The position numbers and the translations under genes are program-made. The notes beneath the pieces are model-generated. The model was not told the origin of the DNA and searched no databases. It saw only the letters and a program-made list of their open reading frames with translations. Positions 1 to 61,173 of a stretch of DNA of 64,000 nt are shown here, one piece after another (the first letter of the stretch is position 1; each line of letters opens with the position of its first letter). The DNA lies in the NCBI GenBank assembly GCA_946894095.1, contig OX335660.1, positions 3,849,001-3,913,000 on the forward strand, written 5' to 3'. The DNA comes from Incurvaria masculella. Taxonomy: Eukaryota > Arthropoda > Insecta > Lepidoptera > Incurvariidae.

Positions 1-688
1 TAAACCACCCTATTTTCTTGATTAGATACATTATCAGGTTCCGGAAGCTTTTCAGAAACCGGGCTTGGAACGGCCCACAACCTTGAACTATGATCATAGG
101 GACTTGGAACCGACTCCGAATATGTTGTTGAACTGCAAGACCTTCGATTGACTGATTGCGGTGCAACTTGAGAAGCACTTGAATCACTCCCTTCTATCAC
201 TTGTAGCTCGTACCGGGCAAATAGAGAAGCCATTTCTAGCTTTACTATACTTTGCATTCTAGGTGGGAATGTTTTAAAAGTTTGAGCATAACTTAAAAAG
301 AAATGATCAACTCCATCCATTTTGGCTTTTTGTTCATTTTTATTTTTTAAATATTCTATTATTTTCTCACTATCATTGGGGTCTGCGCTCGTTTTTCGTT
401 TTCTCGTAATTTGCTGGCTTGATCCAGTTGCATGTGTGAGATTTTGTGTTTCATTCATCGTAGAGTTCTCTGTGTCGGCTGTAACAGTGGTATGATCGTC
501 GACTGGAGAACGCTGACTATTACTTTCTGTTTGTCTTCTTATATTAAAATCGTCTAAAAACCTCAATTGCGAAGCCCATGGCCAAGACTTATACTTTTTA
601 TAAGCCTGGCCTGTAGAAGATTCATTATTTTTCTTGTACTTGTTGTAGTTATCCCTCAGACTCTTCCACTTGGCTATCCATACTTTAC
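1..688 (-). CDS. MADF/BESS accessory protein of Harbinger element 1, exon 2 (runs off left edge)
   Basis: Read on the minus strand from 688, the frame stays open to the window edge. The product begins KVWIAKWKSLRDNYNKYKK, which is the C-terminal half of a MADF (Myb/SANT-like) DNA-binding domain. Further on comes a segment with DHFFLSYAQTFKTFPPRMQ, which resembles a BESS protein-interaction motif. PIF/Harbinger elements carry such a Myb-like partner, which is thought to help the transposase find the element ends and the nucleus. The exon starts right after an AG on the minus strand (689-690) and joins in phase to the exon at 16331-16478, together giving GFGDSKVWIAKW. The intron between them contains the transposase exon on the other strand plus a later gypsy insertion. 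There is no initiator Met in this piece because it is an internal exon. The stop codon lies outside the window. Confidence 0.72.
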
Positions 689-707
689 CTAAAAAAAAAT
701 TTTTCAG
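689..707. promoter_or_regulatory. 19-nt segment acting as 3' splice site on both strands (Harbinger 1)
   Basis: The 19 bases between the minus-strand MADF/BESS exon (ending at 688) and the plus-strand transposase exon (starting at 708) read ctaaaaaaaaatttttcag. Each strand ends in a T-rich tract plus AG, so the same segment gives both genes a 3' splice site. The second Harbinger element has a segment of identical length in the same place (58299-58317). Splicing is inferred from phase and protein homology, not measured. Confidence 0.6.
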
Positions 708-1001: not shown

Positions 1002-2010
1002 TGTGACGTTCGACCGGAACCCTCGCTTTTGCGGCGGCTCCGTCCGCGTCATCACGCGCCACCACTCCAAATTAAATGTAGAATAGGCGTACCCTTAGGG
1101 GGTAGCCGAGCCAAGTACTACCAGGGACGGGGAAAAAGAATACGACCAATTTTAGTGAGAATAAAGGTGGACGTTTATTACAAAGAAAACTAAACAACAA
1201 AATGCTCAAGCGGTACATAAATGGTTTGCAGTTAGAAAGTCTATCGTTGAGGCCTCCGTTAAGGGTAGAAAAACTTGGTGGTTGGTTCACTCAGTGGTGG
1301 ACCACGTCGGTGCGCAGCATGGTGGGTGCACGCGCGTGCGGTGCGGCGCGCGGGGCGTCGGCTCAGAGCAGCGGCGCCGGCGTGTCGGCCGCGTCGTCAA
1401 CGCCGGTCGACGGCGTGGCGGCGTGGCTCAGCGCTGCTCGGCGCGGGGCGCATCGGCGCGGCTGCGCGGATGGCCGGCCAGCGTGCTCGGCTACCTCGCC
1501 ACGTCGCTGCCGGCGACGGCGGCCCATCGGCGAGTCGTGTCTCGGGCGAACGGAAGACATAACTGGGGCCCACTTAGTGAGCCCCGCAGGAACCGCTGAA
1601 GTCAATTTCGAAACACTTAGACGGGCGCTCACGATAAAATGAGGCGTGGGCGCCGTAAAATGGTTACAGGGTGCTTGAGGAGCTAAAATAAAGCCAGGTC
1701 AATAGCGACCAAGGAGGAAATGAGTTTAATTAAATGAACAGGGCTGTGAGCAATCGCTAAAAGGTATTAAATTGAAGTTGGGTTACCGGTAGGTGGACCG
1801 CGGTTTGTAGAGGTGCGCTCTTTGCGAAGGCTGCTGGTAAAGTGGGCGACCCAAAATGGTCGCCGCACTACGAAATTATCATTTTCGTTTCTCTTTTTTT
1901 CTGAGGGTAAGGAAGATTTTAATTAGGTAAAACCACGGAGGGAGCAAGGCGATTGGATTAGCCTTGGCCAAGGAGCTATGAACACTGTAGTGGCTTACCA
2001 AAAATCCACA
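1002..2010 (-). repeat. 3' LTR of the gypsy element
   Basis: This matches 9985-10501 joined to 15166-15670 almost base for base. A GC-rich segment at about 1310-1530 is unlike the AT-rich rest. Several short frames in it are chance frames of the LTR. At its inner end the first bases of U3 are shorter than in the 5' LTR by 8 bp (TCACGTAG is missing after TG). Confidence 0.93.
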
Positions 2011-2026
2011 ACCCCCCCTCTCGAGG
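2011..2026 (-). other. Polypurine tract of the gypsy element
   Basis: On the minus strand the bases just before the 3' LTR are cctcgagagggggggtt, a purine run in the position where plus-strand DNA synthesis is primed in LTR elements. Called from position and composition. Confidence 0.7.
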
Positions 2027-2400
2027 AAAGAGGACGACGAGCCGTCCGACCTGTCGCCCTGGACAGACCGAGTCCTCGAGAGTAAGCCAAGGCTAATCAG
2101 GCACAGGTGAAGCCTGAATGAAATGGGTAAGTGAACAAGGTCGGGTGGGACACAAATAAAAAAACAACAATCTTAAACTACGGGCTACCTACTGGAATAA
2201 ATGCAGTAAAAAAAAAGGACAGACCAAAAAAAAACAAAATAGATACTCCTCCACGCAAAAGGAACACAAATTAGGCTCTAGAACTTAAATTAAAAAGACG
2301 TGTTGGCTTGTTTATTTATTGTAGGAGTTCCCGTATTCTTCTAACAGAATACGGTGCCGCTCCTGTAAGGTACAAAAGAAAAGTACAGCACAAAAAAAAT

Positions 2401-2610
2401 GGCTCATACAGGCTTAGATTTTTTTCATTAGGAGTTAGACTAAATCGTCCTTACCGCTCCTGTGAGGTAAAACGACGAAGTATAGCACTTAAACATGGCT
2501 CATACAGGCTTAGATTTTTTTCATTAGGAGTTAGACTAAATCGTCCTTACCGCTCCTGTGAGGTAAAACGACGAAGTATAGCACTTAAACATGGCTCATA
2601 CAACAAGTAA
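2401..2610. repeat. 96-bp tandem repeat, two full copies plus a stub
   Basis: Copies start at 2401 and 2497, and a 10-base stub starts at 2593. The copies look identical. The frame at 2308-2610 that spans them repeats the same 32 residues and is most likely not a gene. Confidence 0.9.
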
Positions 2611-3423
2611 GTTGGCTTCTTTAGTTAGCAGTAGGAGTTGGACCATACAGTGTCGTTACCGCTCCTTTAAGGCACCCAATGAGCGGCTAGCGATCATGCC
2701 CTGAGCTTGAGGAGTTCAGGACACCCTTAACCTAGAACTAACCGCTTGGTGCTACGCAACATGCCTAAACTACGGGACAACACATTATTTACAAGACCTG
2801 CTCTCGCGCCCTAACATGCATTATCTTTCGCTCGCCTCTAACATTCCAAGTCTGGTCATCCTACAGCGGAAGATCAGACATCACCTTGCAGTGGCCGTCC
2901 AGACCCTCGAAGGCGCGAGCCGGACGACCGGTGCGGGAGCGGGCCGCTCCAGACGACGTCACTAAAACTAACACAAATCACATAAATTAACCACTGACGG
3001 CACCCAGCAGCATGGCTGGCGAGGTGACGTCGGGGAACCTACAAGTAAAAAAAACAAAACAACACTACAGTCCAGTAGGTACCCGGCAACTAAGTACTAA
3101 CATTATCAAAACAACAAACTAAATAAATCAACAAAACCAAACACGGTCCGCTTTACGAAGGGAACCGGTATAGGGATTAAATAGCCCAATAACGAGGTGA
3201 GAGAGGGACATAGGTAACTCTCCATAAAGAAAAATTAAAAAAAAATCAAAAGCTTAACTTTAAGGACTTAACGACCTACTTACTACTACTTGGGCCTAGG
3301 TAGTGGTATTGGAGGCACAGTCTAGGTCTGCCGGTCTGGCATGATACCGTTAGAAAAACAGGACGCGCGTTCAAACTGCCTATGTTGCGAGAAAAAAAAA
3401 TTAAAAAAAATAAAAAATACTTT

Positions 3424-3590
3424 GAAAGGATTCACAGCCCATGAAGTGGATGAAGGAGGGTGAGGCCCAGTGCAGCGGAAGCCTTATTGCGAAAAAAAAA
3501 AAAAAAAAAAAAGTAAAAAAACATTAAAGGAATCCACAATCCATGAAGTGGATGAAGGAGGGTCAGGCCCAGCGCAGCGATGAGCTAACA
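3424..3590. repeat. Imperfect tandem duplication of about 102 bp in the gypsy 3' region
   Basis: The core 'atgaagtggatgaaggaggg' occurs at 3441 and 3543, each followed by 'aggcccag' and preceded by an A-rich tract. Confidence 0.8.
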
Positions 3591-4342
3591 TAAATGGAGG
3601 GGCATGATCGTAGCCTTGGAGGCAAAACAACAAAACATTATTTTGAAAAAAAAAAAAATTTATTTTGAGATAATAAATTTAAGAAAGAGAACCGGTGAAA
3701 AGTTTCGTTCGTGAATGAATTAAAACTGAAATGAACTGTTGCAGTTCCGCTGTGACGCGAACGGAACGAGACGAATCGATTTCGGTGGCGTTCGCCAGCG
3801 TGCGCGCCGCCGTGATCGCGTCGCGTGTCCGAACGGCCGAGTAATATCAATACTTATTACGCGCCGACTTGCTCGGATTCGCATTCAATACATTTTAAAT
3901 CTACCATAGGATAGAAAACGAGTTAGAAGCGCGCCGCGAATGTTTGCCGAGTGTCCGATTAGGTCCGCGAACAGAGGGCAAGGGCGGGAGCCAATAAAGG
4001 CGTGGGGCCCGTCAAAAACAAATGCGGCCGGGGACATTCCCAAGTGGAACGTATTAGTCCCGGCGGCAGGAAGAGAAACTGAAGGAAAAAAAATGAAACA
4101 TCCGCGGGGCCTTCTAAACTCAAGGCCAGAATACAAACTACGTTTTGACTTGTGGTGAAGGAAAACATTACATAAGATAAGGGTTTAAAAAAAACTGGTG
4201 TCCCCTCCGCTTAAGGTTCGCGGGGCAAAAAGGGCGTTTGGCACTCGCCAAAACGGTCAACCATATAATAAAATGAGAACACTTTATTCCAAAAAAATAC
4301 ATTGAAATGCAGAGCGCGTTGGGAGATCGGGTCGGAAATACG

Positions 4343-7011
4343 TTAAACTAATGTAAGCTTAAAATCTTTGACGCTCCAGTCACCTATAGACTTGCCTTTT
4401 TCGTCCGCGAGTTCGTACACCGTGGGGGTCTTCCGTTTCAAAATCGTGCACTTGACATAGCGAGGCGCTAGCTTGTAGGAGAAATACCTACCAGCGTCAC
4501 TACGGATGAAGGACTTCCTCCAAACCTGCTGACCGACCTGGAAAGATTCGGGGCGGCGGCGTAGGTTGTAGCGAGCCCTGTTGGTCAAGTGTGCACGGTC
4601 GAGGCCTTGCCGCACCCTCTTAAATATATCGTTGAGCTCGGAGAGGTCCTCCACACGACTCTCTGTAGGCGTTAGTAAATGATCGTGAATCGACTCATCG
4701 CGCAGGCGACCGTAACTGTCACCGTCCGACACCAGCTCGCGGCCGTAGGTCAGGAAGGCGGGCGTGAACCCAGTGCTCTCGTTCACCGCCGTATTCACTG
4801 CAAACTGGAGCTTGGGCAACAGGGTGTCCCAAACGCGATGGTCGTCTTTGATGAAAGTACCTAACATAGTAACGAGCGTGCGATTGTACCGCTCAACGAT
4901 ATTTATTTCGGGCGTGTACTTCGGTGTGTAAAACTGTTGGGGAATGTTGTACCGACGGAGTAGGTCACGGAGGTCCGATCCGATAAACTCCGTTCCGTTA
5001 TCAGACAAAACGGTTTTCGGAACACCGTGTACAAGAAAGACTCCGTTTCCAACCGGTCGGCGATATTTTTGGCCGTAGCGCGCCTGAGCGGAAAGAAAAT
5101 ACAATACTTGCTAAACGCGCAAGTAACGACTAAAATGTAAACATTACCTTCTCGCGACGCGGGAAAGGGACCGGTTATATCTATAGATATATACTCGAAG
5201 GGTCGCGAGCACTGTTTCGCCTGCCCCATCTGGCCGAGTGTAGCGTGTTGAGCGTGCTTGTGTGCCAGACACGTCTCACACTTCCTCACGTAGTCCGTGA
5301 CGTCACGGTACATTCCTGGCCAGAAATGTTGCAGGGCGAGCCTCCGATACGTTTTATAGACTCCCAGGTGACCCGAGGTCGGTTCGTCGTGACAGGAACG
5401 GACTGTCGCGGCGCGCCGGCCCGCGGGAATAACGAGTTTCCACTCGAAGTCCCTATCGAGCTGGAATTTACTTCGGGTAAAACGGTACAAGTTACCATCC
5501 CGTAAGGTAAAATTAGGTACGGACTGCGGGTTATCCGTGCATGACTTCGCTAGCCGGTCGTACCATACGTCGGGCGTGGTCGCTTCTGCTGAGGACAGGA
5601 GGGGGGCGCGGCTCAAAGCGTCCGGGATGACATTCTCCTTACCCTTGCGATGCTTGATCTCAAAATTAAAGGGGGATAAGCGGATGCCCCAACGAGCGAG
5701 ACGACCGGTCGGGTTGTCTAAGGAAAGGAACCACTTTAGAGAGGAGTGGTCTGTGTAAATAGTGAACATTGGACCGTACTCGAGATAGCACCTCCAATGT
5801 TCAACTGCGAAGATAACGGCTAGGGCTTCGCGTTCCGTCGCTGAATAGTTGGTCTCGCAAGGTGTCAGGGCTCTGCTCGCGTACGCGATTATTTTTTCGT
5901 GACCCCCGATGACCTGTGTTAGTTTCGCACCTAGTCCGCACTGGGAAGCATCCGTGTGAACCTGAAAAGACTGTGACCAGTCCGGGCACGATAGGACGGG
6001 AGCGGTGCTCAGAGCTAGCTTGAGGTCACGGAAAGAATGCTCCGCGGAGCCAGACCACGCGAACGGCGGCGTCCCGCGCTTCGTGCTCGTCAACTTATTC
6101 AGCGGCGCGGCGCGAGAAGCGAAGTCAGGGATGAACCGGCGGTTCCACGAGGCGGTCGCGAGAAACCTACGTACTTCGGTTGCGTTGGTGGGGGTAGGCC
6201 ATTCCGTTATGGCTTTTGTCTTACCGGGGTCGGGGCGCAACCCGAAACGATCCACTACGAAACCTAAGTAGTTTAGACTACTGCGAAAAAAAACCGATTT
6301 CTCCTTATTCGTGGTCAAGTTAGCCATCTTGAGCACGTCCAAAACCTTTAAGAGTATGTCTAGATGTTCTTCAAAAGTTGAAGATACTATCACGATATCG
6401 TCGAGATATACGAATACTTTACCGTGATAGGTGGATCCGAAAAGTTGGTCCATTAATCGCTGCTGGGTCGCCGGCGCGTTAGTTAAACCGAAACACATAC
6501 GTTTATAACAGAACGTGCCGCGCCCGGGAACACTGAAAGCGGTCTTTTCGCGCGAGCTGGGGTCAAGGGGGATCTGCCAGAAGGCCGAGCTAAGGTCAAT
6601 CGAGGACAGGTACTTCGCGTCGCGTAAGTTGTCGAGTATGTCTGACACGTAGGGCACTAGATAAGAATCTTTCTTAGTCACCCGATTTAATTCTCGACAA
6701 TCTAGACAAAACCTAAACTTTCCGTCTTTCTTGACCGTAAGCAGCACGGGTGAGTTCCAAGCGCTCGACGTCGGCTCGATCACGCCTAGGTCTAACAGCT
6801 TGTCGACCTCGCGGTTGATGAGCTCTAATTTGTGCGGGGAAAGGCGATAAGTTCGCTGCTTGACCGGCGCGGCGTCTCCGGTGTCGATCGAGTGAGCGGT
6901 GAGTGACGTCATACCGAGTCCAGCGGCGTCCGCTGTTATCGTATCGAAGCGAGAGATAACGCTGTCGGCTACGTTCCGTTGCGTCGCGGTCAGTCCGTCG
7001 TAGTCGACCAA
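4343..7011 (-). pseudogene. pol: Gypsy Pol: reverse transcriptase, RNase H, integrase (one frameshift)
   Basis: The minus-strand frame starts just after the Gag-protease stop. In order it contains: RT with SSAWNSPVLLTVKKDG, the FGLTNAP block and the catalytic YLDD box (about residues 202-205 of the 702-aa frame); RNase H with HTDAS and YTDHSSLKW; the integrase HHCC zinc region (HLGVYKTYRR ... CETCLAHK); and the integrase core with ISIDITGPF. Near 5046-5048 the frame shifts by one base in a short A-run (minus strand). The core then continues in the next frame with DNGTEFIGSDL and an E in the NIVERYNRT block, ending at 4343 with a basic C-terminal domain. No clear chromodomain is visible. Without the shift this would be one frame of normal gypsy length. 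Confidence 0.9.
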
Positions 7012-7032
7012 GTGGTCGACGTCGACCTTATC

Positions 7033-8892
7033 TCAAAATGAAGCAGGTGTGCCGGTCCAATCCACGAGAGTCACTTGAGTGGGAAGTAACCTAAAAGATT
7101 TCCAAAAATCGATCCCGAGGATTAATTCGGCGTTCAAGTCTGGCGCGGCATGAAAAATTAGCTCACGCGTAAGTCCATTGTAAGTCACGGGCACTCGGAA
7201 GTACCCGTTTGCTTGTGCGGTGGCCCCATTGGCTACCGTCACTCGCACGCGGAGGTCCGTATGCAGTAGGTATCCGTTCGCGACGAGTTGGCGTTGGGTT
7301 ACGCGGTTCACGAACGATACCGAGGCCCCCGAATCTAGGAGGCCCCGAAGGGAAAGTAAACCTACAGTTATATTTACATAAGGTCTATTATCTAAGTCTA
7401 AACTAGAACACAAAACCGCGTTATGATAGGAACAAAAAAAGGTCTTAAGATAAATAAGCCAATCCGTCCATTCTTTGGAGGACTGGAAAAGGGTAACACC
7501 TTCATAACGCGGACCTATCAGTTTTTTTTTCGTGCACTCAGGGCACTGGCTCTGTCGTACGCCGGGTTTCTGGCAACCGAAACACCTGAGTTCGCGGGGA
7601 GCGGGGCATCGGAAAAACGAGTGCTCGCTGGTCCGGCAACGAGGACAATAAACTTGTAGGTCGGCGCGCGGTTTGTTTTGAGCGACCGCGGACGCGTTCA
7701 CTCTGCGGGAAGCGGGCGCGCGCGGCGAGCTACCTCCGCTAGCGCGCGTGCCGCCTTTATAAGCAAATTCGGCCGCGGGCGCGTCGGCGCCGGCCGCGCT
7801 GGGCTCTTTAAAGGACCGGAAGCGAACACGGGTGGCTTCGATCTTTAGACAGTACGATTTTAACTGATCTACAGATTTAATCTCTACAAGCGAGAGTGGA
7901 CCGATGTAGGTAGGGCGCACATTGCGTAATAAAATGTCAAGCTTAGCGCTCTCGGAAAGTGGCGCGCGCAATTGATTAAAAAGCCCATGAATAATTGCAA
8001 AATAAATTGTTACGCTTTCATCTCTTCCCTGTGTGCGGGCACGTATCACCCCCAGCAGCCGGTGATCTAAATCGACCTCGTCAAACTCTGTCAGCAACAG
8101 TTCGCTGAGCTGCTCCCACGTGGCAACTGAATGACGTACGCTCCGGTACCAATGAAGGGCCGGCCCTTCGAACAACTCGGGGGCGGCTACAAATAACTGG
8201 CGAGTTGTTATCGAGCGTGACTCACGCAGCTCCTCGATCCGCTCCAGGAAGGCGCGCACGTCCTTCTCGCCATCGTACGTGAGTTTAAGCCTCGCGACTG
8301 CGTCACTGTACCTAGCTGCGGGGCACGCGTACGTTGCGACGGGTCCGGGCGGCGCGGGCGAAGGCGGCGGCGGCGGCGGCGCGGTTAAGGTGAGGGTGGC
8401 GACGGACACAGGAACGCTCGAGGCGGACGGCGGCGGCGGGGCGTCACTTTCGAATGGTCCTGGGGGGGCGAGCGAAGCAGGGGAAGGGGGCGGTGAGGTA
8501 GGACCGTCCTCGTCCTTCCCGAGGTAGGCGGACTCGGTGGTGGCGAATAAGTTGGACACCGTGTCCTTGAGCGCGACTTGTTCGTCCGACGACGCCTCCA
8601 CGCGCGTGATTCTATTGAACAGGTGGTCCAGTAAGGCCTTAACGCACGGCGTGAGTTTAGCGTCGGTTGCCGCCAGTACGAGCCGGTTGAGCTGGCTGCG
8701 GATGGACTCCAACTCATCTCCCGGATCCTCGTCCGTGAAGAATATCTCTTCCGATGGTTGGTCCCGGGCTAAGGACGCGACCTGTCGTCTTAGCGCTGCC
8801 ACGGTGCCCAGAGGTACTTCACCGCGGATCCTAACCTCGTATTCCAGCGCTTCCTTTCGCAAAAGGTTAAATATTAACTTGCGTAACGACAT
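7033..8892 (-). CDS. gag: Gypsy Gag with C-terminal aspartic protease
   Basis: This is a 619-aa frame. The N-terminal half is acidic and Pro-rich (about residues 130-190). A capsid-like helical region follows (about 200-360), then a basic linker. There are two zinc-knuckle-like motifs: CPRCRTSEHSFFRC, a canonical CX2CX4HX4C, and CFGCQKPGVRQSQC, where the His position is Val. The retroviral-type protease motif LLDSGASVSFVN lies near residue 510. The frame ends in TGA at 7033-7035. RT follows in the same frame only 22 bases later, so Gag-protease and Pol are separated by a single stop rather than by a frameshift site. Full-length otherwise. Confidence 0.88.
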   Translation of the reverse strand: MSLRKLIFNLLRKEALEYEVRIRGEVPLGTVAALRRQVASLARDQPSEEIFFTDEDPGDELESIRSQLNRLVLAATDAKLTPCVKALLDHLFNRITRVEASSDEQVALKDTVSNLFATTESAYLGKDEDGPTSPPPSPASLAPPGPFESDAPPPPSASSVPVSVATLTLTAPPPPPPSPAPPGPVATYACPAARYSDAVARLKLTYDGEKDVRAFLERIEELRESRSITTRQLFVAAPELFEGPALHWYRSVRHSVATWEQLSELLLTEFDEVDLDHRLLGVIRARTQGRDESVTIYFAIIHGLFNQLRAPLSESAKLDILLRNVRPTYIGPLSLVEIKSVDQLKSYCLKIEATRVRFRSFKEPSAAGADAPAAEFAYKGGTRASGGSSPRAPASRRVNASAVAQNKPRADLQVYCPRCRTSEHSFFRCPAPRELRCFGCQKPGVRQSQCPECTKKKLIGPRYEGVTLFQSSKEWTDWLIYLKTFFCSYHNAVLCSSLDLDNRPYVNITVGLLSLRGLLDSGASVSFVNRVTQRQLVANGYLLHTDLRVRVTVANGATAQANGYFRVPVTYNGLTRELIFHAAPDLNAELILGIDFWKSFRLLPTQVTLVDWTGTPASF

Positions 8893-9984
8893 GTTGAGTT
8901 ATTAAATAAACTCGAAAAAGTCTAAGTAACGCACTAAACTTTTAACGTAAATACGTTCTTAACATCGCATAGAATGCACGCATAATAAACTCTAAAATAA
9001 AAAAAAAATAAAAAAAGTGATCCCCAACAAATGAAGGTTGAGTGATCGGGCTGTGAAAGTCTTGAAACGCACGAGGTGCATGCGCAAGGTAAGTGAGAAG
9101 AAACAGTATGGGCATCAAAAGTTCAAGAAAAAAAATGGTCCCCCACGAATGAAGGTTGGGTGATCAGGGCCGTGAAACTACGCGCCCGCGCGACCGCTCC
9201 GCGTCGCGACAATTAGATGGAGCGAGGGAAAGAAAAAAAAACGTGGGTAGTTTCGCGAGCAAAGAAAAAACAACTCGTAAAAATTCCTACGGCACACGCG
9301 CCGTCTGAACTAAATTAAAACAAAACGGAATCATACTGGGTAACAGGCGGGATCTACCGAGCGCTAACCAAAACAGAACGAAAAAAAAAACGTGAGACCG
9401 TATCTAGTTCAGTAGGAGGGAGCGTGTTAGGCAAGTTGAAGTGAGCGCGAAATACCAACGGGGAATCGAAAGTTTTAGATTATCGATGCGAAATTATGAA
9501 TCTGTCGTCTCAAAGTGAGCGCAGTAAAGACATCGCTCGCGCTGTGTCGCGCGGCCATGTTGTGTAGTGAAATCTAAGTTCAATGTGAAGTTATCAAGGG
9601 CAGCTAAACATGGAATGAATTTATGTTTTTCAGCTGAAGGCGAAACGTAAGTACTGTGTGAAGTGAGTGGGGCGTAAACAGGATCAACTCGTTCGGTGGT
9701 CGAATCAACTTCGAAACATGGTTTCAAGGTTAGGTCGATCGCCGAATCGAACGCGTTATCGTCTCAACCAATGCGATAGCTCACTAGCACACAACAATCA
9801 CACGTAAAAATGTTACAGCAAACAATTAATGAGAAGAAAAAATGGAGGGCTCAACAGAAACCTGGCTTTTTACAAATTAAATATTCTTTTTCCCTCCCAG
9901 GCAGTACATAGCTCGGTTTGGAGTGGGGCGCAAAATAGAAACAGGATTCCTAGTCCTGCTCGTCCCCGAACCAGTGGATGCCAG
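8893..9984 (-). other. Gypsy 5' leader with a duplicated segment; primer-binding region next to the LTR
   Basis: About 1.1 kb lies between the 5' LTR and the Gag start, with no convincing frame. A segment beginning near 9017 is repeated near 9136 (atgaaggttgagtgatcggg against atgaaggttgggtgatcagg). Directly next to the LTR (9984 downward on the minus strand) the bases read ctggcatccactggttc, which contains the TGG expected of a tRNA primer site. I cannot name the tRNA. Confidence 0.6.
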
Positions 9985-10501
9985 TGTGACGTTCGACCGG
10001 AACCCTCGCTTTTGCGGCGGCTCCGTCCGCGTCATCACGCGCCACCACTCCAAATTAAATGTAGAATAGGCGTACCCTTAGGGGGTAGCCGAGCCAAGTA
10101 CTACCAGGGACGGGGAAAAAGAATACGACCAATTTTAGTGAGAATAAAGGTGGACGTTTATTACAAAGAAAACTAAACAACAAAATGCTCAAGCGGTACA
10201 TAAATGGTTTGCAGTTAGAAAGTCTATCGTTGAGGCCTCCGTTAAGGGTAGAAAAACTTGGTGGTTGGTTCACTCAGTGGTGGACCACGTCGGTGCGCAG
10301 CATGGTGGGTGCACGCGCGTGCGGTGCGGCGCGCGGGGCGTCGGCTCAGAGCAGCGGCGCCGGCGTGTCGGCCGCGTCGTCAACGCCGGTCGACGGCGTG
10401 GCGGCGTGGCTCAGCGCTGCTCGGCGCGGGGCGCATCGGCGCGGCTGCGCGGATGGCCGGCCAGCGTGCTCGGCTACCTCGCCACGTCGCTGCCGGCGAC
10501 G
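9985..10501 (-). repeat. 5' LTR of the gypsy element, first piece
   Basis: This piece is identical in order to 1002-1518 of the other LTR. It is cut at CGACG (10497-10501), which is repeated at 15166-15170 after the Transib insertion. Confidence 0.93.
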
Positions 10502-13500
10502 CACGGTGGCGTGTAATTTGCGCCTAGTGGACTTTGCCGCTGACGATTTTTTTTTTGTTTTTTTCGATATTCTAATGATGCAGTTTTATTCATTTTAACA
10601 TTTTTATTACTTCTATATTAAGTATTTTGCAAATAAACAAATATTTTGGGTGAAATAACATTTTTCTTGTTTTCAATGTATGGAAATAATTATAAAATTG
10701 CTGATAACTCGTAAAGCACAAGTGATCACAAAATAATATTCTGGATAATCAATAAGGTCCCCGTACGTGATATTTTAGCTTTAACCAACAACCTCGCAAA
10801 TGCTCGTAACTTTAGGAAAAAAAATAAAAACGGTTTTGGTGTATGGGAAAAGCTCGTATATTGGCAGGTATTATTCATTTAACTAAATTTATTGATCTAA
10901 AACTACGTATAAATTAATCCTATTACTTACTAGGAAGTACTAATCCTACCCGGGGTCGTATCATGGCATAGAATGTACAATAGTCGAAGCGACAATGACA
11001 ATCGTCCGTTTTATGTAGTAGTATGTAGTAGTATAAGGATGGACCTGTTATGGCACCTTGTTCCCATAAAGTATGTTGGTATCATGACAGTAGGTAGAGT
11101 ATCAAGCTAAATTAAAACAAACATGGGAATAACAATATAAGGTTCCTTAAATTGATTTACAGTACATATTTATTTGTCACAATTTCCGGCTTAACTAGGG
11201 ATAGGCAAACAACATAATTATATAAATATAAATAAACATAAAAATATAAAAAACATAAAACGTAAAACTGGATATAATTTTAAGAGGTCACACTTGGGAC
11301 ATATCCTGTAAGGCCGGTTCGAGCCATAGAGAAAGTAACCTCTGAACAAATCTTATTGAGTTTATGATTATTAAAAAAATACTTGTTAATGATAATGTTT
11401 GATATTTTAAGGATCACCCGCAAACCTATCTGGACCAAATTCATGAAGATCGGATTCTCAGTATGTGGAATTAAGTGTTTTACTTACACTTCAGATACAA
11501 ATATTCGAGATTGAGATCAAGCCACGTTTATTTGATCGCGCCAATAGTTTTAATCTACTAGTCAAAATAATATAAATAATTTACCGATAACGAGTCATAC
11601 TCATTCTCACAACTTTAGAAATGAAACATAGGCACTACATTAATGTACTAGAAACTGTTCTCAACACTTTCGTTCCATTGGTGGTAATATTAGCATTACA
11701 ATAATGCAACATTCCTGAAATATTAGAGTTCACAGGAAAAACAAGACGGATTAAAAGTTTACTAGGAAAGAGATAAGCAAGCACAGGCGAGCATTGTCTG
11801 TGAACTGAGTAACGCCATCTATCGCGCGTCCAAGAGGTACAAAGACAAAGGCGCGAGAAAGGGATAACAGATTCTTTCAAAGCGCGCTATTTTTGTCGTA
11901 ATCTGTAATCATGGAATTCAGTGGACAATCAGTATGTACCAGCCTGTCATATCGTCCTGACGTTTTCCAACGCACTTGGTCGCGGTGTATTTTCGGTGTT
12001 CGTATTGTTGCTGCAACTATAATTGTGTCAATAATGGAAAGTTTGTGTACAAATTTGGATTTATATGTCATCCTTAAAGACAATAACAATTTAAAAAATC
12101 CAGAACTTTTGTATGATGTGATTAAATCCAAGCTTTCCGTGGACTTAACAAGTGATATTCAATCCGGTCTTCATGAGTTCTGCAGAAAATTCTGTTTTAC
12201 TCTTCACAGAAGATGGATGAATGTTGGTTCTAAATTAGACCAATTCTTCGAGAGCTATAGTGCGTGGCTAGAATCACCAATTCAGTGGCCCGATTGTGTA
12301 ACGAATGCTCTTCAGGGACAGCGCATCGATGACACGGAGCAAGTCGATATCAGCCTCGATGAACCTGAACCGTCAACTATAGCGTCTACCAGTGGAACTA
12401 ATCTTCTTACTTCTACTAATATTAAACCAAGAAAGCCTTTTACTGAAATAGGTTTAAAACAAAAGAAAAGAAGAACTGAGCAGATACGAGAAACATACGC
12501 ATCCCCAGAATTGGCATTTGCCACGTCGATGAGGCTGAAAGCTAATGGAAACCAAGAGGTCGCAGAAATACTGGAATACCTCTTAAAAAATCCCGACGAA
12601 GTGCCACGTGTCAAAGCATTTATTGAGAAGAAGGAAGAAAAACGACAGCTCAGCCCCGAAAAAGCTCTAGGAGGTATGCTATCCACAAAAATGACTAGGT
12701 GGATGTATAATTCTTGGAGGAATATTTTGAAAGAAGAAGGCTTTGACGTATTGCCTTCTTCTTATCAATTACAATCAGTCAAACAGGATTGCTATCCAAA
12801 GAAAGAAGACATAACTATAACTGATTCAGAAGCCCAGATCAAATTGCAGTCTTTACTAGATTTAACCGCAAAAAGACTGCTAAAGTTCGTTAGCACAGAG
12901 GATGATTCATCGCAATTTAGACTAGAAAGTAAGTGGGGACTGGACGGTGCCTCAAATCAGAGTAGCTACAAACAGATTTTGGACGAAAGCTACGATGATT
13001 CTTCCGTGTATATGGCAAGTTTGGTACCACTGAAGCTGTCAAGCGGTGACAAAGTCGTCTGGAACAATGAAAAACCAAATTCAAGTAAGTTTTGCAGGCC
13101 GATTTTCTTCAAATTTATAAAAGAATCGAAGGAACAAGTACAACGTGAGGTCTCCAGTATTGAAACTGAAATAAACCTTCTTGTACCCACGCAAATTGGT
13201 GAAAAACGAATAAGTCACACCTTATTCCTAACCATGGTGGATGGTAAAACTTCTTCAATTCTAACTGAGACTTCAACACAGAGATGTGACATATGTCATG
13301 CCACACCAAAAGAAATGTGTACCATAAACGTGTTAGAAAATAAAAATACTAACACTGAAATGTATAAGTACGGCTTATCTACTCTACACGCTTGGATTCG
13401 TATGATGGAATGCATCCTACATATTGCACATAAATTAGATTTAAAAAAGTATTATGCCACTACGGACGAAGAAAAACGCAAGATACAACAAAGGAAAACA

Positions 13501-15165
13501 CAAATAACTGACGACTACAGACGTACCACTGGACTTTTGATAGATGTCGTTAAACAGGGGCAAGGAAACTCCAATGACGGGAACAGTGCCAGGTGATTTT
13601 TTGGGGACCCGCATACCACAGCCACCATTACGGGAATAAATGAAAACCTTATTAAAAGATTTGCAGTAATTCTAGAAGCCATATCTTCAGGGCAGGCCAT
13701 CAATATCGAGGAATTTAAAACATATTGCAAAGATACTTATAAATTGTACTTGAATCTGTACAGTTGGTACTATATGCCACCGAGCGTGCATAAAATACTT
13801 GCACATGGAGGGGACATCATTCAATCGTTCGGACTGATACCAATTGGAATTCTATCAGAAGAGGCATCAGAAGCTCGAAATAAAGATTTCAGGGAGTATC
13901 GCCGGAATCACACTCGAAAGTTTTCAAGAGCAGCCACGAACGAAGATACACTTAATAGACTTTTATTAACTTCAGATCCTTGGTTATCAACAATACGACC
14001 TAAATTTGAAAAAATCAAGAAACCCCATTCCGAAGAAGTAAAAACCTTATTAATCGTTAATGAAGAAAAAGAAAACATTGAGTTTGTTGATGTCAATCAA
14101 TTATAATTTCTCAAGTTTATACAATGTACAAATTATAGTAATGATCTTGTTTTGACTAGTGGATTAGGGCTTTTGGCGAAACCACATTAAAAAAAACGCG
14201 CCTTGTACTCAACCTCTTGGGTGGTGTGGAATAGAGTATTTGAAGGGTTAGTAAAAAAATATTCCACGTACTGAGAATCTAGTATTTGTGAATTTGGTCC
14301 AGCCAAGTTTGCGGGCAACTCAGGTATATCCTTAAACAATTCATACATTATAAATATTTGTTAAGTAATTTCTCCATATTATTAAACCCAATCCGAATTG
14401 TTTGTATGTTACTGTCTTTATAGATATAGGATATATTCTAAGTGTGACCTTTTAAGGTTGTATACAGTTTCAGGTTTTCATTTATATCATGTTGCAAGTC
14501 AATGTACGCCTGAAGTTGTGAGAAATATTGTTAATCCCATTCTTATTTGTTTTTATGTAACTTGTCATAGATGGCCGTCATGATATTAGCCTAATGTACC
14601 TTATAAGAACTGGGTTCCATGCCAGGACATATTTTATGGCTACATGAATGGAAAACGGACAATTTTCTTTGTCGCTTCGACCATTGTACATTCTATGCGA
14701 TGATACGACCCCGGGTACGATTAAACCTACTTCCTAGTAAGTAATAGGATTATTTTATACGTAGTTTTAGATGATTAAATTTAGTTAAATGAATAATACC
14801 TGCCAATATACGAGCTTTTCCCATACACGAAAACAGTTTTTATTTTTTTTCCTAAAGTTACGAGCATTTGCGAGGTTGTTGGTTGAAGCTAAAATATCAC
14901 GTACGGGGACCTTATTAATTATCCAGAATATTATTTTGTGATCACTTTTGCTTTACGACTTATCAGCAATTTTATAATTATTTCCATACATTGAAAACAA
15001 GAAACATTTTATATCACCCACAATAATTGTTTATTTGCAAAATACTTAATATAGAAGGAATAAAAATGTTAAAATGAATAAAACTGCATCATTAGAATAT
15101 TGAAAAACACAAAAAAAAAATCGTCAGCGGCAAAGTCCACTAGGCGCAAATTACACGCCACCGTG
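10502..15165 (+). mobile_element. Transib DNA transposon, copy 1 (4664 bp)
   Basis: Both ends carry the inverted repeat cacggtggcgtgtaatttgc, with the 5-bp target duplication CGACG at 10497-10501 and 15166-15170. The copy at 27253-31916 has exactly the same length. The outer roughly 510 bp of the two ends are near-identical inverted repeats, and weaker similarity continues inward. The first seven bases, CACGGTG, match the heptamer type shared by Transib ends and V(D)J recombination signals. Non-coding flanks are about 1.4 kb (left) and 1.06 kb (right). No second gene, such as a RAG2-like kelch protein, is visible. Confidence 0.93.
11911..14106 (+). pseudogene. Transib (RAG1-like) transposase, copy 1, one nonsense codon
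   Basis: The frame is homologous along its length to the 731-aa frame of copy 2. It differs at residue 45 (L for W), residue 138 (R for H), residue 507 (H for Y), and by a TGA stop at 13594-13596 where copy 2 has AGA (residue 562). The RAG1-like landmarks are WGLDGAS with D345, TMVDGK with D444, a CDIC zinc pair, HKILAH, and EARNK with E654. The stop falls between the second and third acidic residues, so the product would lack E654 and the HKxLAH zinc site. This copy should be catalytically dead but can still be moved if a working transposase is present. Confidence 0.92.
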
Positions 15166-15670
15166 CGACGGCGGCCCATCGGCGAGTCGTGTCTCGGGCG
15201 AACGGATGACATAACTGGGGCCCACTTGGTGAGCCCCGCAGGAACCGCTGAAGTCAATTTCGAAACACTTAGACGGGCGCTCACGATAAAATGAGGCGTG
15301 GGCGCCGTAAAATGGTTACAGGGTGCTTGAGGAGCTAAAATAAAGCCAGGTCAATAGCGGCCAAGGAGGAAATGAGTTTAATTAAATGAACAGGGCTGTG
15401 AGCAATCGCTAAAAGGTATTAAATTGAAGTTGGGTTACCGGTAGGTGGACCGCGGTTTGTAGAGGTGCGCTCTTTGCGAAGGCTGCTGGTAAAGTGGGCG
15501 ACCCAAAATGGTCGCCGCACTACGAAATTATCATTTTCGTTTCTCTTTTTTTCTGAGGGTAAGGAAGATTTTAATTAGGTAAAACCACGGAGGGAGCAAG
15601 GCGATTGGATTAGCCTTGGCCAAGGAGCTATGAACACTGTAGTGGCTTACCAAAAATCCACTACGTGACA
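15166..15670 (-). repeat. 5' LTR of the gypsy element, second piece
   Basis: This continues the LTR after the Transib insertion and ends in ctacgtgaca, followed by the GTTG target duplication. The last bases show that the complete U3 start is TGTCACGTAG, which is truncated in the other LTR. Confidence 0.93.
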
Positions 15671-15674
15671 GTTG

Positions 15675-16247
15675 CTTGCAGTGGTGGATCCAGATTACAA
15701 ATTTATTTTGATCGATGTTGGCAGCTATGGAAAAGATAGTGACAGTACGGTTTTTCAAAGGACTTCATTCTATCAAAAAATTGTTAACAATCAGCTGAAC
15801 ATTCCCGGGTCAAAGCCGTTACCAGGTCGAGAAAAGCCAGTGCCTCACGTTTTTATTGGAGACGGCGGTTTCAAATTAGAAACATTTTTGATGAGACCTT
15901 TTCCAACTAATGTAACCATACAGGATTTAAGAAAAAAGACATATAATAAGAGACTGAGTAGTGCAAGACGCATAGTAGAGAGCACATTTGGCATTTTGGC
16001 TCAAAAATGGCGGGTATTTTTTAAGCCATTGGAACTCAATGTAGACACTGTCGTTGATGTTGTAAAAGCAGCGTGTTGTTTACACAATTACCTTAGAGTA
16101 AAAGGAGATTGTCACATCTATGATGATGAGCCAGACAATGATCAACGCAGTGCCGCCTTTCAACATTTTCAGCAAACAAATATGAACAGAACCAACTGTG
16201 CAGCGTATGCAATTCGGGACGAATATATCGCTTATTTTAATCAATAG
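15675..16247 (+). pseudogene. HARBI1-type transposase, exon 2, second half
   Basis: The exon resumes directly after the gypsy target duplication with LAVVDPDYKFILIDVGSYGKDSDSTVF, containing the second catalytic Asp. It continues to SARRIVESTFGILAQKWRVF, containing the catalytic Glu. It ends at a TAG at 16245-16247. This half keeps its full frame. Function is lost through the interruption and the upstream A-run shift. Confidence 0.88.
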
Positions 16248-54600: not shown

Positions 54601-56908
54601 TATCGAATAAGTCGTTGATCAAGTTCAAGAAATATGCAGTTGCTGATGCACCAATAAATTCCCATAGTTTCAATTTTATTTCACAGAAAGTAAGAGCATC
54701 ACAAACGCTTTGGGAGAATACTTGGCTGGCTAATTTGACTTTCATTTTTTTGTTGTGAAAATGTATATGGTCTGGTCCTATTTTATTGCTAAGGTGAAAT
54801 TTTTCTTTTTCTTGTAGTTCACTTAACTTCACTACGTATTCCCATTTCACTTGTTTATCATTAACATCGATCAATACACCACTATCCTCTAACGTATTAC
54901 GAACCAACTTCAACATATGGCAGGGATCGAGGAACACGGCTACATCTTTAGATGTTGTGGGATGTGAAAATGAGGGTTTAATATTTTTAACGTCTAGTAA
55001 ACACCCTAGTTTTTTAATCATAGATATATTCGATGGACATCCATCACAAGTCAATGATACTATATCTACCCCGGCATTTGCGCAATGTGTAAGACAAAAC
55101 TGTACCAGAGATACCCTTTGATCAGCCGATACACCATCAACAAGAAAGTATGCCACTGGTACTTTCCAACTTGCATTAATTCCCACGACTAAGAAAACTA
55201 ATGCGTCTTTCGCTTTCTTTAGGCACCCTCCGTCTAACGACCCAGTTCCTGCATTTTCATATCCATGATATTCTTTACCATCATAATCAATGTGACGTCG
55301 AATAGCCATTTCATCCAGCATCAAACTGCAGACTAACTTATAATTAGTTGCTACTACCATTTTTTTATGGCTTGAAATGCCTCCGTAGTGAAGCCTGGTC
55401 TTCCATCAATGCTCTGGTACCATTTACTTAAAGTTCTAGGGTGAGGCAGACACATGTCGTACGTTTGTCTGACATACCTATAGGCTTTTGGAGAGTAGTA
55501 GTGCAGAGTAAGTGCAAAATTTCGCAGTTCCGGTGAATATTTCACCCTAGACACTTTATAATCTTTTTTTTTCAACTGCCTTTTTAAGATAGCAGCTGGT
55601 AGGATGCCTATACTATTTAAAACAGTTTCTTCAGTATCTGTTATCAGCGCTTTTTTTTCCAACGATTTCAGGACTTTTTCCAAGTTTTGTATTTTGAATT
55701 TATTTTTCCGATTGATCGCATTTAACTTCTTGATCTTTTTCTTTTGTTTTTCGACGCTGAACATGAGTTTTCGTACTTTCGTTTTAAGGATTTTTTTCTT
55801 TGGAGTGTCCGTCTCATCATTTTTATAGATCGGTGAAGATAGTTCAGTGTCCCGCACCATAGCATGATCAGTTGCCTGAAATAAAACGGATCAAGTGAAC
55901 TATGTTTCTACGAGACTTTGGACTGGCAACTGAGGCAACTGTTACGTCCCTTCCTTTACTTTCTATAGTACTACGTATAATACTCCCTGAATCGGCGAGC
56001 ATGCATGAAGAATCAGATGAGCGTGCAAGAAGCGAAAGAGGTGAGTCAGGATCGTATCAAATGGAAATCCGTGGTCTCTGCCTACCCCTCCGGGAAACAA
56101 GAGTGAATTTATGTATGTATGTATGTATGTAATACGTACTACTTAGGTAGCTCATAAACACCAATTTAAATAAATAATATTCCTCCTTCCGCGAGATTAT
56201 CAGACAGATATTTGAAATAGGAAATAATAATGTTTTATTGAAGGACATACCTCAACATATATGTTGAGAGACGGAACTGCCTCTTCAGCTAGTCGTTTTC
56301 GACCCGCTTTTGATACGTTGATTTCATTTGTTGGAAAATGTGCACAACAAACTTTGCTGTTCTTGGTAGGGATCCATGATTCTTCACGTTTTATAGCTTT
56401 CACCCATTTCAATTTCATTCGTGGGTCATTCGGGAATCTAAAATCACATAAAAATTACAAATAACATCTAACAAAATATTTAAATAGATTAAATTAAATA
56501 GGTTATATTATAGAAAGACCTTTATGTGAGTGAATTTAATTATTTTAAATCCACTCTTCTGGATATAAATAAATTTTATATTGTCTAAAATACATCTCAT
56601 TTGAGCTGAAGTCGCGTTACAACATTAAGAAAATAAAATAATTAAATCGGAACACTAAATCATATCATACTCAACTACAAAATTTCATGTTCAATATATC
56701 GATAAATGTCTGGGCTTTTCCCATCTCTACTGTAACACGCAATCGGCGTGTTGGACACCGCGCTAGGACAAAACATTCTGCTTGTTTGTACTTATAACCG
56801 ATACTATTAGGCACTAAAAAGTACTTACTGATGAAAAGTGATGCCATCTTTGGCGTGTTTTTTCGTTGCGGTGTGGTTCCTGCACAATTTCACCGAACAG
56901 CTCACCAT
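54601..56908 (-). pseudogene. P/THAP9-like transposase, N-terminal part: three exons
   Basis: Exon 1 (56908-56829, ATG at 56906-56908) encodes MVSCSVKLCRNHTATKKHAK. After GT-AG splicing it continues as exon 2 (56437-56251), with FPNDPRMKLKWVKAIKREESW and KVCCAHF. Together they form a C2CH THAP DNA-binding domain. Exon 3 (from 55875) has a Lys-rich coiled coil, then RTYDMCLPHPRTLSKWYQ. A one-base loss in a run at 55360-55366 shifts the frame, which continues with SLMLDEMAIRRHIDYDGKEYHGY, a D in SLTCDGCPSN, and DPCHMLKLVRN. It ends at NDLFDI, where the nested insertion starts. With the part at 50146-51178 the protein would be about 855 aa, close to THAP9 length. Confidence 0.83.
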
Positions 56909-57161
56909 TATTACATGAAAACACGTTCACAACGTCTGAGCTGTTGTAACACGCGCGGGTCGCGGAGACTGACGCTCGTTCGTCGGTGCGATGACCAATA
57001 TTGGCATGCGCAGTGCCTCGGCTAGGTGGCGTTTTGGCCTCTCCATACGCGGGAGCGGGGGGCGGGGGGGTTGGTACCTCCATGGATGTACCTGTTCACA
57101 CTGCGTCGCGAGTCGAATAGGTCGTAGTTTCGCGCCATTCGGTACGTAGCCAACTCGCGAG

Positions 57162-59227
57162 ATGGACGCCGACGAAGAACTTGTTGTGCTCTACTACTTA
57201 CGAAGAAAATTAAAAAAGTTGAAAAAAAAGTCAATTCCAAGAAAATACTGGATGCACCCAATCCTAACAGAAACATCGACTTTGGGAAGTTATAAAAATT
57301 TAATACATGAATTAAAAAATGACCAACGAAAATTCTTTAATTATTTTAGAATGTCACAAGCAACTTTCAACGACCTACTGTCAAGAGTTTCTGCGAGCAT
57401 CACGTATCGGAATACGACATTTAGAGACTGCATTTGTCCTGAAGAAAGACTGTCGATATTTCTTAGGTAAGTGTTTTTTTTAGAATCACACTACACTGCT
57501 ACAAATATTCAGATTGTATCAGTTGTAGTGTGATTTCTGAGGTGTATTGAAATTGAAACAAAAGTTATTTTAACTTGTTTATTTTAAGTAGGTAAACAGC
57601 GTTCAAAAATCGGAGAAATTTAAGTCAGTACTTTCCGACCAAGTAGATGCAGCAGGCGATCCTTCCTCATACGTTTGACGTGTTGCATATCCAGAACCAT
57701 GTGGGGTAAGAACAGCGGTTTTGAGAGGAATATCTGGATTCATCGGTAGATAAATAATTATAGTTCTGTGTCGAATACCCCGATCGCCGTGTGCTATCAC
57801 GCGCGTAATTATAATTATTTGCATAAAGTCTGTTTTTACGTTTCTTTTTGATTTGTTGTAACAGTGATAATACACCTGATTGAAGCTCCAACGTTTCGTC
57901 ATCGTCGAAAGACGTAACAGAGGGTAAGATACCTTTAAAAAATGATAAAATTGGGGGATCAGTTTGTTGTGATAGCCTGCTGTCTAAAAACTCGCTCATT
58001 TTGACATCTAAGTCCATTATATGTTGCTCTGGTGGCATGGTCTTTTGTCTTTTAGAAGTGCTTGGTTGCGAATTCTCAGACAACTGAGTACTGCCTTCTG
58101 TCCCTGGTTGAGATATACGCGACGCAACAGACTCTTGAGGAGGATTAGGTCTAGCAACTATACGCAAAAAATCCATTTGCTCTTTATATACATATGGCTT
58201 TGACGACTTTGCCCCTGATCCTGACTTTTTTTCATCATTTTTGTTTGTTCGGATCCAGACATTCCGTAAGTTCGTCCACTTGGTCAATACTAATTTACCT
58301 GAAATTATATTTTTCAGATATTGTGCGTCAGGATGTTCCTTCAAAGACCTGCACTACATTTTCAGAGTCGAGGTATCAACTGTTAGTAAAATTATCAAAG
58401 AAATGAGTTGCATTATCTGGGATACATTAAAAGAAGAGTTTATGAAGTTGCCCGACAATGAAAATAAATGGGAAAACATCGCAAATGGTTTTGATATTAA
58501 AGCTAACTTCCCACACTGTATTGGAGCCGTCGACGGCAAGCATATTAGAGTAGTGAAACCAAATCAAAGCGGCTCGATGTATTTCAATTACAAAGGTTAT
58601 TTTTCATTTGTTTTACTAGCTGTTGTTGATGCAGAATACCGTTTCATATATATAAGTGTTGGTTCATATGGGAAAGAATGCGATTCTTCCATATTCAAGG
58701 AGACTACCTTTTGGAAGAAACTGAATGATGGTAGTTTAAACATACCAAAGCCAAGGCCTCTTCATGAAACGATCGAAAAGGATATGCCCTATGTACTAGT
58801 TGGCAATGAAGCTTTCCCCCTGACGACAAATTTAATGAGACCTTTTGGAGGCAATCATTTGCATGATAAGAAAAGAATATTTAATTATCGATTATGCCGT
58901 GCAAGAAGATTTGTTGAGTGTGCTTTTGGAATTTTAGCTAATAAATGGAGAATACTGCATCGACCATTGGATGTCCACCCAGACACCGCTATCCATATTG
59001 TGAAAGCCTGTGCAGTATTGCATAATTATTTAAGAGAAAGGGATGGTCTAAACTTTGAAGATATTCAACTTGCACTAGAACAATCGATACAAGAACAAGA
59101 TCAACAACAGAGAGTACATAATCCTCGTGGTGGTCCGATTGCAAATGTTATACGATCGGACTTTGCAGACTATTTTACTTCCCCGATTGGTTCGCTGCCT
59201 TGGCAAACTAATGCGCGATACGCATAA
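57162..59227 (+). CDS. HARBI1-type transposase of Harbinger element 2, two exons, apparently intact
   Basis: Exon 1 (57162 to about 57466) encodes MDADEELVVLYYLRRKLKK, then RKFFNYFRMSQATFNDLLSRV and CPEERLSIFLR, the usual HARBI1 N-terminus, and ends in a consensus donor. Exon 2 starts at 58318 after TTTTTCAG, and the joined text reads SIFLRYCASGCSFKDLHYIF. The catalytic triad is D in GAVDGKHIRV, D in VGSYGKECDSS and E in VECAFGILANKWR. The total is about 404 aa, normal for the family, with no internal stop. The intron (about 850 bp) contains the main exon of the accessory gene on the other strand. I could not find both termini of the element. Confidence 0.87.
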
Positions 59228-59341
59228 TATAAATGAGTTAAAAATTAATAATACAACGTAAATACATAACTATGTAGTATTTATAATAGTTAATAAACTT
59301 TACTGGCACTTACCGAAATGTTGTCTTTCTTTTTCTTCCAT
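57667..59341 (-). CDS. MADF/BESS-like accessory gene of Harbinger element 2
   Basis: The main exon (58298-57667) starts after an AG at 58299-58300 and encodes KLVLTKWTNLRNVWIRTNKND, the second half of a MADF domain. A Ser/Pro/Gln-rich middle follows, then a BESS-like motif (FFKGILPSVTSFDDDETLELQ). A possible exon 1 (59341-59314, MEEKERQHF plus donor GTAAGTG) joins in the right phase to give HFGKLVLTKW. It sits 87 bases beyond the transposase stop, as in element 1. It is much shorter than in element 1, and the first half of the MADF domain is missing, so this gene may be truncated. Confidence 0.6.
58299..58317. promoter_or_regulatory. 19-nt segment acting as 3' splice site on both strands (Harbinger 2)
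   Basis: The 19 bases ctgaaattatatttttcag separate the two oppositely directed second exons. They end in TTTTTCAG on the plus strand and AATTTCAG on the minus strand. Length and position match 689-707 in the other element, although the flanking exons have diverged strongly. Confidence 0.6.
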
Positions 59342-61173
59342 GTTTTCAAAATTAGGTATTAGTATGGTACAAAGGGGTTTGCCTAAAAATGTATGGAAGG
59401 GTGGATTTTTTATTTTTAAGATGTTCGTTCATGATTTTTTTTTCGTTTGCAAGGGTATTTTGTAACAAGAAAAATATGGTATAATAAAACTCGCTAGCTT
59501 GGGCAGTTTTCCAGATAATGTAGTTTGAATTTGCGGTAATTTTACAAGGGTCGAACCACGTTATTATGGTGTTAAGTGGATATATAACTATTTAATCTTT
59601 TTTTAAACACTTACATATATATTCTCGACTCGCAACCCTTACAACTTTAACTGGAGCGATCAGCCATCCACTGTAAATTGGACAAAGACACTAAAACAAG
59701 ATACGACTGTTCAGTGAAAATAAAGAAATGCTCTACTACCCTATTTCCGTACAGCTATGACAGGGGATACCAACTTTACAGATGGAAATTGATAAGATTT
59801 AACTGATTAAAGAAAACTGCTTCAATAAAAGTAAACCAACTTTATTTTGTTTGCACAATTTTAATTTAACTTACATATACCTCCAATAGAGGTTCTTATT
59901 ACATTAATATGATTTAGGCAATATATGAAATAACGTTACAATAACGAATTGAACCGTTTAGGTATATGTGACACAACATTACACTACGACTGACTTATAT
60001 GGACATACACTCGATAATATTATTGCCAATTTTCGAACTTAAGGTGCCCCCGGAGGCGACTTTGCCCATACATCCGTAGTTGACTAATCATTTAAAAAAC
60101 CGCTGTTGCGATTTACCTGTTTTTTTCCCCTGTATCTATGGATCAATATCTGTGTCTGCATGCTATTGTTTTTTCAAAAAATCAACCCTCTTACAAATGA
60201 CAGCAAGAACAAAATTTGCCGTTTTTGGGGGTAAATCGACCAATATTCAGAAGGGTTATTAGCTTCATTATACACGTTCGTGTGAGATATAAATAGCATG
60301 CAAACATCCGTAATATAGTCATATTTAAAAATAAACAAGAAAATTTGAATTAGGTATTAGAGTTTTTACAGCATTTGTCGACTACGAAAATTGACCGAAA
60401 ATCGACTAAAATCTAGGCCGCTTTCGGCGTCGATCGCTTCGCACGCGGGTGTGTGGGGCTTGGAGCGGAAGGGCCGGCGGCAGGGAAGCACGTTACCTAC
60501 ATTACCTACACTACTACTGCTTGCTTTTTAGTCATCAGTGCAGGTGCGAACGGGAAGCGTGTAGGTCGGTTTTTCGGCTGGTGTCAGCTGAGGTGATTAG
60601 CATACGAGTTGCGTTTCTGATTTAGCGGTCCGAAGTACGACCTACTGTGTATTTAGGGAATCTAATCATTTGGGCTGAATAACGAAATCGATTTACTTTG
60701 CGTTTTGGTTTTGCGTCGTACTGTATGGAATATTTTATATTGGCAAATACAAAATTGGAAAATTTTTACATTGAGTGATCGTTTTGACTAGAAGTACTTA
60801 ACTAGGTAGGTAGGTACCTAGTTTTGACTCGGGCGGGAGAGGAGGGGTTCCAAGAGAGGTTACCTAAAACATCGTACTTACAAGACAGCCTATATGTAGG
60901 TACCTCTATTCGCATAGCCTGCATTTGATGCACTTTTGCCTCACGCGAAGTACCTAGTCAGAGTGTAAGCCTTCCGATTCTTGCGCTAATTAGTTGACAT
61001 ACGGAATACACACTCCTGAATTTTCACAGCAGCTTCCGACCTATTTTGGCGCATTTACGGAGCATATTTTTAATTTGTTAGCGCTGATTCGGAAACACTT
61101 GAAAATGTTTCATTTCGTGTCATTCATTCCGTGTGGCGATGCGATCGATTATACCAAATGTCGTGTAGTCATG
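59342..61173. other. Non-coding sequence, no gene recognised
   Basis: AT-rich with a GC-richer part at about 60415-60600. No frame longer than 60 codons that I can support and no RNA gene seen. The motif aggtaggtaggtacctag lies near 60800. Confidence 0.5.

Follow-up and report, generated by a model that had tools for sequence, protein, structure and literature searches.

PIF/Harbinger transposons of Incurvaria masculella with two genes apparently interlocked on opposite strands

The window, the whole 64,000-nucleotide (nt) stretch of Incurvaria masculella DNA that was analyzed, holds two elements in which a transposase gene on the plus strand (exons T1 and T2) is combined with a MADF gene on the minus strand (exons M1 and M2). 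Their features are listed in Table 1. In the element at 57-59 kb, the main exon of each gene lies within the intron of the other. The sequence-only reading had described this reciprocal nesting, which proved to be real and to recur in many families, as well as the 19-nt gap with an AG on both strands, which we confirmed. The T2 region was recognized as DDE_Tnp_4, since PF13359 scored 115.4 bits over window positions 58139 to 59227, and T1 was aligned with the T1 exons of the Spodoptera frugiperda model P0002 and of the sister element L016. An Arctia plantaginis protein that aligns with 68% of the query matches the window transposase at 96-97% identity. When M2 was compared with PF10545, positions 36-84 of the domain were matched with 17.6 bits, which is under the cut-off of 22. 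We take the C-terminal region of M2 to be BESS-like; no Pfam BESS match was detected in this exon.

The copy at 57-59 kb is damaged. Its M1 exon, which ends 87 nt beyond the transposase stop at 59227, is cut approximately 50 nt from the donor, and nucleotide homology with L016 stops near position 59364. The ATG at 59341 is not a start codon: alignment with L016 (window, LIPNFENMEEKERQHFG; L016, LIPNFDNLDEKERQSCG) showed that it encodes an internal Met of the truncated exon. No match of a MADF N-half query was obtained near M1, and no pair of terminal inverted repeats was found at 56600-60700 around the copy, the right end of which has apparently been lost. Residue 265 of the window transposase is Asn, and all 13 aligned relatives have Asp at this position, which is presumably catalytic. 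Based on the truncated M1, Asn 265, and the lack of a detected repeat pair, we rejected the window copy as an active element. The altered residue concerns the activity of this copy and not its family membership: the DDE_Tnp_4 domain and the MADF second gene characteristic of PIF/Harbinger elements are both present, with the second half of the MADF domain being all that this copy keeps.

The second element has the same exon phases, and its M1 ends 84 nt past the transposase stop at 16247. Joining its M1 to its M2 yielded a full MADF domain. The earlier statement that the two window elements share the layout, the 19-nt gap, the phases, and similar offsets (84 and 87 nt) was accurate. The second element is split by ~14.7 kb of inserted sequence (window positions 1011-15668), which contains a gag-pol-like frame pair (8898-4343, minus strand) recognized by eye. 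Two near-identical long frames in opposite orientation, at 11902-14106 (plus strand; split by a stop) and at 30516-28312 (minus strand), seem to be two copies of a further gene, either mobile or duplicated.

Table 1. Features of the two elements, in window positions
Feature	Position	Strand	Remark
57-59 kb element, T1	57162-57466	+	Transposase exon 1; ends at donor GTAAGT, phase 2
57-59 kb element, transposase intron	57467-58317	+	851 nt; M2 inside
57-59 kb element, likely poly(A) signal of the MADF gene	57578-57583	-	AATAAA; ahead of T1
57-59 kb element, M2	58298-57667	-	MADF/BESS gene exon 2; MADF second half and C-terminal region
57-59 kb element, spacer	58299-58317		19 nt, CTGAAATTATATTTTTCAG; 3' splice sites back to back, AG acceptor on each strand
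57-59 kb element, T2	58318-59227	+	Transposase exon 2; DDE_Tnp_4 domain
57-59 kb element, likely poly(A) signal of the transposase gene	59292-59297	+	AATAAA; just before the MADF donor edge
57-59 kb element, M1 remnant	59314-59364	-	MADF exon 1; 5' part lost; GTAAGT donor begins at 59313
Second element, M2	1-688	-	Continues beyond the window start
Second element, spacer	689-707		19 nt, CTAAAAAAAAATTTTTCAG; AG on both strands
Second element, T2, 5' part	708-about 1010	+	Two frames at tblastn level, then insertion
Second element, T2, remainder	15669-16247	+	
Second element, M1	16478-16331	-	MADF first half; donor GTAAGT

The recurrence of the layout was studied in the 552-Mb genome (31 contigs), in which a Pfam search listed 150 transposase matches, scored candidates only. 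We examined 20 long and 20 short stretches, in most cases with a single representative of each score class, supplemented by 2 and 13 further copies, and grouped the families by eye. In the class called type A here, the transposase intron falls in phase 2 between LR and YLATG, and the MADF acceptor precedes the conserved MADF Trp by 2 nt plus six codons. All 13 type A families scored show the layout with back-to-back acceptors in the sequence itself, with an AG on both strands and with fixed codon positions and phases. Among the 22 type A rows with a plus-strand acceptor, 19 also carry one on the minus strand at the same codon offset, and the frame behind it is open for at least 80 amino acids (aa). 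As a control, AG anchors in the long loci were evaluated by the same minus-strand criterion, and 56 of 2162 (2.6%) conformed to it. The second window element was scored in the type A run; the control script could not score it. The three misses were L026 and L037, in which there was no candidate, and L040, which has an early stop; this stop is absent from two other copies of the same family, L049 and L050. Since the families are related, the family counts and the poly(A) counts given below are not independent.

Eleven loci were left unscored, namely L001-L006, L009, and L010 (two other lineages) and L042, L045, and L048, in which no junction was found. L001 and L002 coincide in location with L009 and L010, and L003-L006 are their score-class mates. 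Also outside the counts are L021, a member of the L019 family with an alignment offset, and the fragment L028. By hand count, 47 of the 150 listed matches fall on contig C20 (17.8 of the 552 Mb) and 19 on contig C21, many of them in a few clusters; because the list holds scored candidates only, this enrichment is a lead only.

In a second class, type B, both introns are in phase 0; that of the transposase precedes xPTxEEW, ~45 codons later than in type A, and that of the MADF gene follows the MADF domain. Acceptors placed back to back at a distance of 24-83 nt were assigned in 12 of 12 type B families, which were less fully checked than type A. The minus-strand frame is open for at least 60 aa in 10 of them; in L018 and L043, the site was set by eye and the frame is open for ~55 aa. 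The T1 exon was found in L012 and L014/L015 and was looked for but not found in L017 and L018. Each of the three type B M1 exons scanned (L012, L014, and L018) contains the MADF domain; 8 of the 12 type B families were covered by 1.3 kb each, in which M1 was not seen. In a tree of 14 transposases (10 type A and 4 type B), the difference between the two types falls on one branch (96/96).

We propose, with a probability of roughly 0.8, that these are PIF/Harbinger DNA transposons with two genes interlocked on opposite strands, and that the spacer between their acceptors varies freely in length, 19 nt being its short end. Along such an element, the exons follow in the order T1 (+), M2 (-), T2 (+), and M1 (-). 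Each gene has one coding-region intron that holds the second exon of the other gene, and the two acceptors face away from each other across the short spacer. Since each intron holds the other's second exon, each pre-mRNA would be spliced across an exon of the other gene. The sequence itself demonstrates the layout with its phases and donors, the MADF domain regained on joining the exons, purifying selection on both frames in the one pair compared, the varying spacer, and the position of the poly(A) signals. We infer that splicing occurs as drawn here, that transcripts end at these signals, and that the layout represents compact packaging on two strands which a clade has inherited. It may have arisen when a tail-to-tail gene pair was partly duplicated in tandem and one of the two copies of each second exon was then lost.

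The placement of poly(A) signals was analyzed in the eight type A families in which both donors were located. A signal at most 60 nt before the MADF donor was present in all eight (2.1 expected from summed shuffles), and on the other side seven had one in the interval from the MADF stop to the T1 donor (3.2 expected). In the exception, L024, the corresponding signal is located 13 nt beyond this donor. L027 and L026, further copies of two of these families, are outside the count. Two donors deviate: the MADF donor of L011 is weak, and the T1 donor of L016 is GTAATA. Overall, the predicted exons cover the element with hardly any overlap. While the pre-mRNAs would overlap fully, the predicted mature mRNAs would barely do so; they should share little complementary sequence, because in most of the families tested the predicted poly(A) signals closely precede the first-exon donor of the other gene.

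A less likely reading is that interlocking is kept as a selected device. It would avoid overlap between mature sense and antisense mRNAs and so limit double-stranded RNA, internal deletions would kill both genes, and one-gene derivatives could not spread. In its favor, all 25 assigned families retain the architecture although their spacers and sequences have drifted, and in most of the families tested the poly(A) signals precede the exon of the other gene. However, inheritance together with coding constraint would give the same pattern, and the independent trials are few, because a single change separates both intron layouts on the transposase tree. A wider formulation is similarly doubtful, namely that the whole clade is built on one bidirectional acceptor cassette, with mutually nested genes on opposite strands, tiled exons that leave the mature mRNAs almost free of overlap, the acceptor pair at two different positions within the gene pair, and both introns shifted together. 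This cassette could be selected for convergent, fully antisense transcription without complementary mRNAs and for locking both genes against one-gene deletion derivatives.

The spacer itself was proposed by the sequence-only reading to be a shared, conserved 19-nt site. The type A families have spacers of 19, 19, 22, 26, 27, 28, 30, 54, 55, 62, 90, 220, and 320 nt. With a range of 19-320 nt in 13 type A families and 24-83 nt in 12 type B families, a fixed 19-nt spacer was rejected. Variation is also found close to the window elements: L036, another copy of the family of the 57-59 kb element, has a spacer of 29 nt; the sister element L016, in which both genes are open, has 62 nt; and both other copies seen of the second element's family (L047 and L064) have 20 nt. 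Because of these lengths, the occurrence of exactly 19 nt twice in the window is a coincidence. Measuring the gap in relatives, as had been suggested, revealed half of what was to refute the earlier reading: its length varies freely, but both AGs are kept in the families scored.

It was further suggested that the 19-nt site is constrained, with the branch point of each gene inside the exon of the other, and that this could force exclusive or balanced expression of the two proteins. Apart from the 19-nt spacer in both window elements, the best branch-point-like motifs of the window copy speak for this idea. Ranked by a simple, uncalibrated motif score, the best plus-strand candidate is ACTAAT, 24 nt before the plus-strand AG and inside M2, and the best minus-strand candidate is CCTGAC, 29 nt before the minus-strand AG and inside T2. 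The spacer itself also holds CTGAA, which begins no exon and stands 15 nt ahead of either AG. Among the 12 rows whose spacer is at most 30 nt long, the top candidate lies within the opposite exon for the plus-strand acceptor in 7 (2 ties) and for the minus-strand acceptor in 3 (1 tie and 1 row without a candidate). In contrast, among the 15 rows with spacers of at least 33 nt, a candidate is present inside the spacer for the plus-strand acceptor in 14 and for the minus-strand acceptor in all 15. Moreover, TACTAAT is kept in L016 despite a plus-strand acceptor 43 nt further away, and the motif can thus be retained for coding reasons alone. Branch points in the other gene's coding exon are therefore plausible for short-spacer members and are not a general property, since long spacers hold their own candidates; as a general rule, we rejected branch-point sharing on the basis of this simple motif score. 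Given the spacer lengths and the motifs inside long spacers, we consider a constrained shared site very unlikely, and a coupling of the two genes via shared branch points is not needed and not supported.

When M1 and M2 were joined, a full-length MADF match (positions 1-84, once 2-84) with 51-74 bits was obtained in 9 of 9 type A families tested, while M2-only stretches of the two window elements gave 15.6-25.5 bits. This restoration is partly selected, because the best-scoring GT in the right phase was taken as the MADF donor. The predicted junctions are also spanned by aligned public gene models, that of the MADF gene by models of Mythimna loreyi, Operophtera brumata, and Cydia splendana and that of the transposase by models of S. 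frugiperda and Harmonia axyridis, although these models are possibly homology-based predictions. In the one pair compared, the window copy and L016, T2 showed a dN of 0.13 and a dS of 0.77 (dN/dS ~0.17) and M2 a dN of 0.36 and a dS of 1.45 (dN/dS ~0.25), values that indicate purifying selection on both frames. Although the window M2 alone stays under the Pfam cut-off (15.6-17.6 bits) and the 57-59 kb copy lacks half of the MADF domain, the restored domain in all nine families, the purifying selection, the annotated relatives, and the control rate of 2.6% make it extremely improbable that chance open frames opposite the transposase were misread as a second gene.

L016 (2048-4860 of its stretch) has both genes open, inverted repeats, and a TTA target duplication. 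With L052-L059 it forms a set of nine copies picked for having the same score, and within the stretch read their spacers and flanks do not differ. The S. frugiperda model P0002 matches L016 almost perfectly. The identical copies and the likeness to P0002 point to recent activity of the L016 family, which has possibly also been transferred horizontally.

Nested genes, in which one gene lies inside the intron of a host gene on the opposite strand, are well known. Such ordinary nesting is one-way, whereas here it is mutual, with the acceptors back to back, and recurs across transposon families. In the same genome, L010, which we take to be an ISL2EU-like element with a YqaJ-like partner, is likewise a two-gene transposon with a DDE_Tnp_4 transposase. 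Unlike in the elements described here, its other long frames (2243-3510, plus strand) and its transposase (3564-4913, minus strand) meet tail to tail and are not interlocked. In L009 and L010, which belong to two other DDE_Tnp_4 lineages, the frames of at least 110 aa, viewed without a Pfam scan, included none that looked MADF-like. Viral contigs were scanned with two peptide patterns; there were two matches, none of them confirmed.

Insect PIF/Harbinger elements with a MADF/Myb-like second gene have been described, and that paper (PMC9710019) gives domesticated gene pairs as adjacent, 97 and 179 bp apart, and not always in the same direction. A DDE transposase and a MADF partner are common to those elements and the present ones, and terminal inverted repeats and a 3-bp target duplication are found here in the sister element L016. 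The words nested, antisense, opposite, orientation, and overlap are absent from the main text of PMC9710019, which does not describe the layout in those words. Mutual nesting in such elements was not described in the titles and abstract starts of the literature searched; subscription papers or Repbase may record the layout. As far as this search of titles and abstract starts reaches, the architecture is undescribed.

The finding bears on the annotation of MADF-bearing Harbinger elements, because either gene could be split or missed by gene-prediction software that takes no account of the opposite strand. The interlocked layout may survive in fossil form in the introns of domesticated Harbinger genes. 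The elements also offer a natural test bed of many families for how fully overlapping antisense transcription is handled in a eukaryotic element, for how short the distance between two opposed 3' splice sites can become (19 nt at the least in these elements), and for how two-gene transposons hold both genes together.
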